Origin: Raineyella sp. LH-20
GTDB taxonomy: Bacteria; Actinomycetota; Actinomycetes; Propionibacteriales; Propionibacteriaceae
Assembly (NCBI RefSeq): GCF_033110965.1
Contig: NZ_CP137003.1
Coordinates: 2,728,001-2,792,000 of the forward strand
Length of the DNA: 64,000 nt
Reading direction: 5' to 3'
Of the stretch, positions 54,316 through 56,663 are shown piece after piece. Position 1 is the stretch's first letter, and every line of letters starts with the position of its first letter. Under the pieces are notes generated by a model. The model searched no databases. It saw only the letters and a program-made list of their open reading frames with translations, and had not been told where the DNA came from. The position numbers and the translations under genes are program-made.

Positions 54316-55725
54316 TCAGGCCAGCTCGTCCGCCGAGAGCGGGATGCTGGCCCGGACCACCCAGCGATCGCCTTCCGGTCCGGCGGAGAATCCGCCGCCG
54401 AGCAGATCGATCCGTTCCGCGATCCCGCGCAGCCCCCAGCCGCTGGGGCCGCGTCGGAGGTCGGGGGAGGGCGTCCTGGTCCCGAGCGGATTGGTCACCA
54501 TCAACACCACCTCCTCAGGGGTGAGGCGGATGGTGGCCTGGCACGGGCCGCCCGGTGCGGCGTGCTTGACGATGTTGGTGCTGGACTCCTGCAGGATCCG
54601 GATCAGTGTCCGGGTGAGCGTCGCCGGCAGCTCGTCGACCTCCGCCGGCACCTGGCAGGTGGTGGTGTGGCCGAGATCGGTGAGCTGGAGACGCAGTTGG
54701 TCCGCCACTCCGACCACCGAGGTGTCGTCGTTGAGGTGTCCCAGATCGGACTCCTCGGACCCGTTCTCGCGGAGCAGCCCGACGAGCAGACGCAACTCGT
54801 AGAGGGCCGAGTGGGTGGAACGCTTGACGCTGTCCAGCACCTGGTGGAGCTCGGCGGGGTCGTCGGTCCGGGACCGGCTGGTGATCTGCAGCGAGATGAT
54901 CGACAGCTCGTGGGCGACGACGTCATGGAGTTCACGGGCCAGAGCGGCGCGCTCGTCCTCCCGGATCCGCAGGTTCTCCTCACGCAGTTCCTTGAGCTGG
55001 CGTCGGTCCGCTGCCCGCGCCGACTGGAATCCTCGCACGGCGGTGCCGATGGAGCCGGCGACGAAGAACATCAGCAGGACCGGCCAGAAGAGTTGGTGCC
55101 ACGCCGCTCCGTGCCGGGCACTCGCGGCCACCAGCCACCCGAGGAAGACGACCCAGGTCGCCGTGGTGAACGGCCATCGGGTCGTCATCGGGGCCAGCAG
55201 AATGATCAGCGTGCCGGTGATGATGCCGGTGACATCGTCACCCGTGGTGAGAATCACCGGGATGAGCGGTGCGCACGCCAGCACTGCCCACGTCGTTCGC
55301 CACAGCGTGAGGTAGAGGGCGAGATACATCAACACGACGCCGGCCGCGTCCATCAGGCCGTTGCGGTTGAAGAATTCCGCAGCACCGCCCGCCAGAGCGC
55401 GGGCGACGTCATCGGCCAGGCTGACCGTGAGAAAGACGGCCAGCGACCACCGAAGCCACGGGCTGAGCGATGTACTCGTCAATCGTCGCCGCCAGCGGCT
55501 GACGAATCCGGAAGCGGCCGCCGCCCTTTCCACCCCCGTCACCCGCAGATACCGATCGAGCTGGGAAACGGAAAGGGCTGCCAACGACCTCGTCTGAGCC
55601 TCGAAACGTGCTGCCTCGAAACGTGCTGCCTCGAAACGTGCTGCCTCGAAACTCTGCGTCTCGGAACGCTGCGTCTCGAAATCGGCCGTGACCGGCCGTA
55701 CCTCAGGCGATAGGTCAGAAGGCAC
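54316..55725 (-). CDS. NarL-type sensor histidine kinase with a multi-span membrane domain
   Basis: The kinase core is clear: HisKA_3 dimerisation helix with ALARELHDVVAHELSII (phospho-His codon at 54925-54927) and an HATPase with NIVKHAAPGGPCQATIRL and GWGLRGIAERIDLLGGGF. About five or six spans precede it, with no large extracellular domain, so the signal is probably sensed at or in the membrane. The start is uncertain: GTG 55725 overlaps the peptide-gene stop by 11 bases and is used here; GTG 55779 (487 residues), TTG 55584 and GTG 55542 are alternatives. The N-terminus before the first span holds a pentapeptide repeat (EAARF). The kinase is probably co-transcribed with the peptide gene and divergent from its regulator. 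Confidence 0.85.
   Translation of the reverse strand: MPSDLSPEVRPVTADFETQRSETQSFEAARFEAARFEAARFEAQTRSLAALSVSQLDRYLRVTGVERAAAASGFVSRWRRRLTSTSLSPWLRWSLAVFLTVSLADDVARALAGGAAEFFNRNGLMDAAGVVLMYLALYLTLWRTTWAVLACAPLIPVILTTGDDVTGIITGTLIILLAPMTTRWPFTTATWVVFLGWLVAASARHGAAWHQLFWPVLLMFFVAGSIGTAVRGFQSARAADRRQLKELREENLRIREDERAALARELHDVVAHELSIISLQITSRSRTDDPAELHQVLDSVKRSTHSALYELRLLVGLLRENGSEESDLGHLNDDTSVVGVADQLRLQLTDLGHTTTCQVPAEVDELPATLTRTLIRILQESSTNIVKHAAPGGPCQATIRLTPEEVVLMVTNPLGTRTPSPDLRRGPSGWGLRGIAERIDLLGGGFSAGPEGDRWVVRASIPLSADELA
55598..55680. repeat. 15-base tandem repeat at the 5' end of the kinase gene
   Basis: Three perfect copies of GCCTCGAAACGTGCT (55598-55612, 55613-55627, 55628-55642) and two or three degenerate ones up to 55680. 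Read on the minus strand in the kinase frame they give FEAAR units, preceded by the related SETQS and FETQR. If the kinase starts downstream at TTG 55584 this is instead an intergenic repeat. Confidence 0.85.
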
Positions 55726-55873
55726 AGGCGATCGGGAGCCAACCGCAGAAAGCGTCCCGGAGACCGGTCGGCTGGACACTGCCGCCGCCTGTCGTACCTG
55801 CTGCCAGGGAGGTGGGGGCCGATACGACCACCAGAGTTGCTCCGATCACAAGGATCTGCTTCAAGGTTTTCAT
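55715..55873 (-). CDS. Small secreted two-cysteine peptide precursor (candidate signalling peptide)
   Basis: A 52-codon gene with ATG at 55873-55871 and TGA ending at 55715, nine bases after a clear AGGAAGG ribosome site (55883-55889). The product has a textbook signal peptide: basic start MKTLKQ, a hydrophobic core (residues 7-19) and a cleavage region TSLAA near residue 24-25. The mature part would be about 27 residues: a Gly-rich segment (GTTGGGS), then a C-terminus FCGWLPIACAF with Cys43 and Cys50, able to form an eight-residue disulfide loop. Codon use (AAA, TTG, CTT, ACT) is less GC-biased than its neighbours. It lies directly upstream of the kinase gene. I know no named family for it. 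Confidence 0.72.
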   Translation of the reverse strand: MKTLKQILVIGATLVVVSAPTSLAAGTTGGGSVQPTGLRDAFCGWLPIACAF

Positions 55874-55976
55874 CGGACCCCACCTTCCTGAACTGACAGC
55901 ACCCCCCGGCGCCGTTCATCATCTTGGTCGACTGCATCGCCGGGCACCATCGCCTTTCGGATAGTTTTCCGCGCTC

Positions 55977-55983
55977 TAGTCTA
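55977..55983. promoter_or_regulatory. Symmetric -10 element for the response regulator (+) and, possibly, the peptide-kinase unit (-)
   Basis: TAGTCTA reads TAGTCT on the plus strand (55977-55982), six bases before GTG 55989 of the regulator, and TAGACT on the minus strand (55983 down to 55978), about 105 bases before the peptide ATG. The plus-strand transcript would be leaderless. The region 55874-55976 holds no other gene and is the likely control region of the cassette. Confidence 0.45.
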
Positions 55984-55988
55984 GGAAG

Positions 55989-56663
55989 GTGGGACGGACG
56001 AGGATTCTTGTGGTGGACGACGAAGCAGTCGTACGCGATGCGTACCGGCACCTGTTCGGGGATGCCGAGGACTGTGAGGTGATCGCTGAGGCGAGGGACG
56101 GCCGGGAGGCGGTCGCCCGGTACGAGGAGGTCCGACCCGACGTGGTCCTGATGGACCTCAAGATGCCGCGGATGTCCGGAGTCGAGGCGATGACCGAGAT
56201 CGGCCGGCGTCATCCGGACGCGTGCATCGTCGCGGTGACCAGCTTCGCGTCGCTCGACTACGTGGTCCCGGCGCTGCGGGCCGGAGCGGCCGGTTACCTG
56301 GTCAAGGATGCCGGCGCCGATGAACTGGTGGACGGCATCCGCCAGGCGCTCGCCGACGAGATGCCGCTGTCGCCGCGGATCGCCCGGGCCCTGGCACGGA
56401 GCATCGCCGAGACCCCGTCCGAGCCGGCGCCGAAGAAGCCGAAGGTCACCTTCATGGCACCGACCCAGCGGGAGCAGGAGGTGCTCGACCACCTGGCCCA
56501 AGGCCAGTCCAACAAGGACATCGCGATGGAGCTGTCCATCTCCGAGGCGGCCGTCAAGGCCCATCTACGTCACCTCGGCGACAAACTCGGCGTACGGTCG
56601 CGGACCCAGATCCTGGTGTTCGCCTACCGGCACGGATTGGTCAGCCCCGAGCCGGTGCGCTGA
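55989..56663 (+). CDS. NarL/LuxR-family response regulator
   Basis: A 224-residue regulator. The receiver domain (1 to about 120) has the acidic pocket LVVDDEA, phospho-acceptor Asp56 in [13 protein letters not shown], and AVTSFAS and [10 protein letters not shown] LuxR-type helix-turn-helix follows (about 155-220: [42 protein letters not shown]). GTG 55989 is leaderless by context. It is transcribed away from the peptide and kinase genes, so the pair is arranged back to back, not in one operon. Confidence 0.93.

Follow-up and report, generated by a model that had tools for sequence, protein, structure and literature searches.

In the Agr (AgrBDCA) systems of Firmicutes a short peptide ends in a hydrophobic loop closed by a cysteine, the ring being a thiolactone made by that single residue. 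The peptide is paired with a polytopic sensor kinase (AgrC) that lacks an outer domain and with an adjacent LytTR-type regulator (AgrA), and both peptide and sensor evolve fast. The ComCDE and Blp systems of streptococci also keep the genes for peptide, kinase and regulator side by side, the peptide carrying a double-glycine leader and being served by a dedicated ATP-binding cassette (ABC) exporter with a C39 peptidase. The RRNPP and SHP/Rgg systems use short exported peptides that a cytoplasmic regulator senses inside the cell, and in DesK–DesR the kinase senses the state of the membrane alone. Here we describe a locus in the actinobacterium Raineyella sp. LH-20 (Propionibacteriaceae) that shares features with each of these. 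It lies in a window of 64,000 nucleotides (positions 2,728,001 to 2,792,000 of contig NZ_CP137003.1, here G000:C1, a single-contig genome of 3.63 Mb) and comprises a 52-codon peptide gene, a sensor kinase gene on the same strand and a divergent gene for a LuxR-type regulator. The small gene quite probably encodes a Sec-secreted, disulfide-looped pheromone precursor that would be sensed by the adjacent kinase.

The cassette resembles Agr in its short peptide with a C-terminal, cysteine-closed hydrophobic loop, in its polytopic kinase without an outer domain, in its adjacent regulator and in the fast evolution of peptide and sensor. Unlike Agr, its peptide has a signal-peptide leader and two cysteines, its kinase is of the HisKA_3/DesK class and its regulator joins a REC domain to a LuxR-type (GerE) helix-turn-helix (HTH). 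With two cysteines in the loop, closure by a disulfide seems more probable than by a thiolactone. AgrB (PF04647) was matched in none of ten cassette genomes, that of the window included (E≤0.001), and likewise in none of 14 control genomes, a search that had no positive control. The cassette could function in the manner of Agr while not belonging to that system. With ComC/Blp it shares the adjoining genes, but its peptide bears a signal-peptide-type rather than a double-glycine leader; with RRNPP and SHP/Rgg it shares a short peptide apparently destined for export, but its likely partner is a membrane kinase. The catalytic core of the kinase and the architecture of the regulator follow DesK–DesR and the NarL/LiaRS type, in that we found a HisKA_3 kinase, a predicted multi-helix membrane sensor and a REC–GerE regulator; here, however, a peptide gene stands between the divergent kinase and regulator genes. 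Judged by sequence, the cassette also has what marks a pheromone two-component system, namely a peptide with an export signal that is encoded with kinase and regulator and co-varies with the sensor. A preliminary description of the window, made from its letters alone, had named no described family for such a peptide, and this held in the sources that we searched. None of four family peptides scored above a curated cut-off in Pfam or NCBIfam, the matches below cut-off (DUF7327, WGxxGxxG and Mul1B) all coming from the G062 peptide, and no description of the family was found in the openly licensed part of PubMed Central, subscription journals lying outside that scope.

The peptide gene occupies 55715..55873 on the minus strand, with its stop codon at 55715-55717, and its product, MKTLKQILVIGATLVVVSAPTSLAAGTTGGGSVQPTGLRDAFCGWLPIACAF, has 52 residues including Cys43 and Cys50. 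The assignment draws on translation, on homologues in other Raineyella genomes and on purifying selection. A ribosome site, AGGAAGG, lies 9 nt 5' of the ATG. The charged start, the hydrophobic core and the small residues ahead of the cleavage point predict a signal peptide of residues 1-25 (55799..55873, minus strand) with cleavage after TSLAA, which would leave a mature peptide of 27 residues, GTTGGGSVQPTGLRDAFCGWLPIACAF (55718..55798, minus strand). At the C-terminus is the loop Cys43-GWLPIA-Cys50 (55724..55747, minus strand), recognised by its invariance in alignment and its proline pattern. The kinase gene follows on the same strand and the regulator gene is divergent. All of these elements had been picked out in the preliminary description (the open reading frame (ORF), the ribosome site, the signal-peptide-like start, the CGWLPIAC loop and the gene layout), and that observation was confirmed.

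Small frames arise often in GC-rich DNA, and others fill this region, which speaks for a spurious or chance frame. However, the peptide ORF was present beside an orthologous kinase and a divergent regulator in all four Raineyella genomes searched. Used as a query against the other three, the peptide found nearly full-length homologues (E 1.7e-15, 2.9e-12 and 2e-4), and it found weaker ones in a further genus, g2. In an alignment of ten peptides M1, P20, A24, A25, G37, C43, P47 and C50 were kept, while the linker varied in length and sequence; conserved cysteines, a variable linker and a site upstream of the kinase were what the preliminary description had led us to expect, and they were found also in genera with other neighbouring genes. 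Its expectation that changes would concentrate at third codon positions held as well: in six groups of relatives, position 3 was strictly the most different in 42 of 48 codon-aligned pairs, which are not mutually independent. The ratio of nonsynonymous to synonymous substitution (dN/dS) was at most 0.68 in 44 of the 48, the other four giving 0.73, 0.84, 0.94 and 1.13; these values are rough because synonymous sites are near saturation. Among the six Raineyella pairs dN/dS ranged from 0.27 to 0.94 and the third position changed most in five, the sixth being G170/G168 (23, 19 and 18 differences at the three positions; dN/dS 0.94). With frame, cysteines, leader and position conserved in many genomes and control rates of 0 to 5%, we consider a chance origin highly improbable. 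We rejected a chance ORF in view of its conservation, the codon positions at which it changes, the simulated sequences and the control loci; by this comparative evidence the peptide ORF is a real gene.

The cassette recurs well beyond its own genus. In genus g2 the trio was present in all five genomes searched, always as peptide then kinase with a divergent regulator; its neighbours differ, and therefore it is the cassette rather than the locus that is conserved. We ran a profile (A3) of 13 regulators from peptide loci over 195 genomes of Propionibacteriaceae, and scanned the regulator loci with a detector for ORFs that are 36-85 codons long, lie divergently within 600 bp and combine a charged start, a hydrophobic core and two cysteines near the C-terminus. 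It was positive at 36 of 49 loci scoring at least 285 bits (the window regulator, itself a member of A3, is in this range) and at 4 of 23 loci of 250-285 bits, a 24th (L286) being too short for the test. By comparison, it fired at 1 of 20 controls below 250 bits and in 32 of 1840 sequences generated by simulation from those loci. The lone positive control (L298, in G170) itself resembles a real cassette, with the ending PCLIFPWLCP and a divergent kinase. When the 15 high-scoring loci used to find or build A3 were left out, the result was 22/34 against 1/20 (Fisher p 1.2e-5). The detected peptides, 41 in all, are spread over at least 36 of the 195 genomes and at least 9 of 29 genera, the highest-scoring loci having been read.

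Detection depended strongly on layout. Where regulator and kinase were divergent, 35 of 43 loci were positive (21/29 without the ascertained loci), in contrast to none of 25 same-strand kinase-regulator operons (Fisher p 1.1e-8 for 21/29 against 0/25). Other layouts gave 5/24, with L286 counted as a miss, and one locus with its kinase off the contig was positive (1/1). In tiles far from regulators the detector fired 3 times in 909, and a version demanding CxxxPxxC once in 909. Over both strands of the window, 3 of 204 tiles of 620 bp fired, including the peptide gene itself, and 1 of 204 with the CxxxPxxC version. Weak whole-genome matches were not counted (168 of 198 genomes at E≤1 with a single peptide; 31 of 195 at E≤0.01 with a profile); many lay in long frames or mainly over the signal peptide, and they were used only when beside a kinase or regulator gene. 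At six kinase loci (G125, G059, G205, the second kinase of G170, G116 and G048) a two-cysteine C-terminal pattern at first gave no fitting peptide, and G125 does carry a two-cysteine peptide, with a spacing wider than that pattern allowed.

The loop is strongly patterned. Adding seven peptides found via the kinase to the 41 detected at regulator loci gave a set of 48, some of them close relatives. The number of residues between the two cysteines was six in 29, seven in six, eight in six, five in two, ten in one and eleven in four. Proline occupies place 4 in 28 of the 29 six-residue loops (23/24 without five loops found by a pattern that demanded it), places 2, 3 and 6 are mostly hydrophobic, and both cysteines and the loop proline are invariant in the ten-row alignment.

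The kinase gene, taken from its probable GTG start, lies at 54316..55542 (minus strand) and encodes 408 residues with six predicted membrane helices, an assignment based on Pfam, a profile from the Protein Data Bank (PDB), an AlphaFold model and alignment. The listed kinase ORF is longer (54316-55779, 487 residues) and overlaps the end of the peptide gene; judged against homologues, the GTG at 55540-55542 appears the likelier start. An AlphaFold model of the 408-residue form, built with 13 sequences, had a mean predicted local distance difference test score (pLDDT) of 79.6 and a predicted template modelling score (pTM) of 0.45, so that the relative placement of its domains is not reliable. The six membrane-length helices it shows are joined by loops only a few residues long, and the sixth continues into the dimerisation helix; a hydropathy count gave five or six membrane helices in eight kinases. 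The preliminary description had proposed a sensor made of membrane spans only, and the six predicted helices without an outer domain agree with it. By PDB sequence profile and by fold, the core matches DesK. Between the peptide stop and the probable kinase start lie six 15-bp tandem units, three exact and three diverged by sequence reading (55600..55689, minus strand), which would give FEAAR-like repeats were the longer ORF real. Elsewhere, the first receptor gene that follows the peptide encodes a degenerate kinase at eleven loci of genus g4 (L206, L208, L211, L213, L214, L217, L218, L222, L225, L226 and L228) and at L122 and L124. In one example ELRxLVS replaces ELHDVVA, and two stretches tested gave no Pfam match. 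At L122 and L124 a second kinase with ELHDVVA follows, making a pseudokinase-plus-kinase pair.

Sensor identity was below catalytic identity in six of six kinase pairs: for the window kinase 0.52/0.90 with G170, 0.52/0.74 with G169 and 0.41/0.68 with G168 (sensor/catalytic), and for three further pairs 0.64/0.91, 0.56/0.64 and 0.93/0.94. We correlated distances in 26 of the 41 cassettes, dropping nine that had no recognisable phospho-acceptor motif and six with no kinase in range. With regulator and catalytic distances controlled for, the partial correlation of peptide with sensor was 0.31 for the loop region and 0.40 for the whole peptide, values reached by 1 and 0 of 2000 permutations, respectively. 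The corresponding values were 0.19 and 0.24 for the catalytic part and -0.18 and -0.17 for the regulator. Thus, the divergence of the peptide tracks the membrane sensor of the kinase more than the regulator.

This pattern bears on what the peptide does. Genes neighbouring two-component systems are often their targets, and the peptide might be an output of the system, for instance an antimicrobial or surface-active peptide made under envelope stress, rather than a signal. Its small size, secreted look and hydrophobic C-terminus would fit, as would the matches of the kinase to the LiaS, MadS and MctS models, which are weak and far below the curated cut-offs. An output would not readily explain why the peptide follows the sensor more than the regulator, however, and a strongly patterned short loop amid free variation resembles a receptor ligand. 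Additionally, ten proteins from Kocuria, Arachnia and Tessaracoccus-type loci gave no immunity or exporter family in Pfam. We therefore regard this account as unlikely. Co-divergence with the sensor would be expected likewise if the peptide were a cell-attached accessory of the kinase, staying in or at the membrane and setting the kinase's off state or its redox or membrane response with no signalling between cells; the hydrophobic N-terminal segment could remain as an anchor and the two cysteines could form a redox switch. Yet a loose A-x-A cleavage site precedes the first cysteine in 43 of the 48 peptides, and the stretch from this site to the loop differs freely among peptides in both length and sequence, which makes an attached accessory, in our view, a distinctly unlikely alternative to a secreted pheromone.

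We also scanned named genomes with a kinase alignment (A2) and examined the best 80 loci. A two-cysteine peptide lay upstream of the kinase in 11 of them, four of which (L122, L124, L126 and L127) carry the same peptides as family genomes. In Kocuria tytonis, K. marina, K. varians and K. salsicia and in one Micrococcales metagenome-assembled genome (MAG), the genes for regulator, peptide and kinase keep the order and orientation of the cassette. In Arachnia propionica (L120), a human-associated species, and [Pseudopropionibacterium] massiliense (L123), the stretch holds peptide and kinase, and no regulator was found within it. After a search of the class (394 genomes), the 29 loci of its best regulators that were scanned (L229-L257) yielded no additional convincing peptide beyond the family: the sole ORF to pass the detector (L232) looks like chance, and L229 (G067) has a true peptide whose long tail the detector misses. 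As this search added nothing convincing, the breadth outside Propionibacteriaceae stands at the four Kocuria species and the one MAG.

Some genomes hold more than one cassette. The window genome has a second, diverged one (L115, about 3.0518-3.0541 Mb of the same contig) with a peptide ending GPCQLFPWLCP, a kinase and a divergent regulator, which the cassette L298 of G170 resembles. R. antarctica carries a second type (L105, ending CYYLPWLC) plus the orthologue of the window peptide. In Micropruina (L112, G111) the peptide is followed by a kinase/pseudokinase array between two regulators of the same subfamily. L064 and L065, both in G003, are near-alike cassettes with one flank in common and different peptides; that assembly is 86% complete with 4% contamination, and the two may represent mixed strains. 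At four loci without the two-cysteine peptide (L281, at G011:C21, and L288-L290, in G053 and G052) leaderless ORFs of about 15 codons, MSFWHKLARLMGVG and MSFWSTVAYLLGIGR, lie upstream of the kinase, in several tandem copies at L281, where the stretch is partly masked. These are possibly a second signal type.

The regulator of the window (55989..56663, plus strand) has 224 residues and, by Pfam, REC and LuxR-type (GerE) HTH domains. Alignment revealed a conserved leader of 30 nt that includes the ribosome site, GGGGGGTGCTGTCAGnnCAGGnAGGTGGGG (55878..55907, minus strand), present as a single copy, only at the peptide locus, in each of the four Raineyella genomes (up to three mismatches). In the divergent promoter region lies a conserved box, AACTATCCGAAAGGCGATGG (55947..55966, minus strand), a candidate regulator or promoter element with one copy in each of three of the four genomes and none in G168 (same tolerance). 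Since box and leader occur at the peptide locus only, no target genes were found. Searched for palindromes, three of the four Raineyella intergenic regions yielded none, and the remaining one had matches solely at the start of the regulator gene. The trio is flanked by what we take to be hisS-like and aspS-like genes.

Taken together, we propose that the precursor would be exported by Sec and cut after TSLAA by signal peptidase, yielding a mature form of about 27 residues. Its hydrophobic eight-residue loop, closed by Cys43 and Cys50, most likely through a disulfide, would insert at the outer face of the six-helix kinase sensor. The kinase would then pass phosphate to the divergent regulator, which may act on the shared promoter region, as feedback, and on genes elsewhere. 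Consistent with a disulfide, the enzyme VKOR was found in six of ten cassette genomes tested, including that of the window. The comparisons above give good support to the gene family and to its association with the kinase. The proposal of peptide-kinase-regulator signalling in the preliminary description gains from the recurrence of the signature in other genera; as there, we infer secretion, closure by a disulfide or some other cyclisation, and binding and sensing by the kinase, and likewise the direction of the effect, feedback and the regulon.

Several observations weigh against this proposal. VKOR was not found in four of the ten cassette genomes, including Raineyella G169, and the trio comes without an exporter or processing protease. 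A peptide beside a two-component system could be its target and not its signal, and a search of the Raineyella genomes found no second copy of the box (up to three mismatches). The first peptides had already been seen when we fixed the 285-bit line, the layout classes and the detector, and the lower-scoring controls were mostly same-strand operons rather than divergent but unrelated kinase-regulator pairs. Eight divergent loci fail the detector: at three (L277, L270 and L228) a two-cysteine peptide is visible that has a long tail, additional cysteines or TTG as its start codon, one (L291) ends in CQIFQIC with no clear signal peptide, and L271, L288, L289 and L290 have no visible two-cysteine peptide. 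Some codons that precede the true start and do not encode protein may have been counted in the sensor segments compared, and the correlation tests leave shared ancestry in. Finally, a peptide-profile search of the order (293 genomes) gave no convincing peptide outside the family; matches at E≤0.001 occurred in 16 genomes, the four matches outside the family lying in frames of 173 to 1715 residues.

The best reading of these sequences is that the cassette is an undescribed peptide two-component family in Actinobacteria, akin to known peptide pheromone systems. More broadly, we think it likely that such cassettes specify a widespread class of undescribed actinobacterial pheromones in Propionibacteriaceae and Kocuria: Sec-secreted peptides with a C-x-hydrophobic-hydrophobic-P-x-x-C disulfide loop, each read by a six-helix DesK-class kinase that has a divergent LuxR-type regulator; in some cassettes a pseudokinase would serve as the first receptor, and some genomes would have two or more private channels. 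A simple rule for finding ligands and pairing them with receptors follows from the divergent layout together with the loop motif, and peptides of 8 to 27 residues, made synthetically, would allow immediate testing. If correct, these bacteria, Arachnia propionica among them, would possess a channel for peptide signals whose candidate receptor is obvious, which would open the phylum to work on peptide signalling.

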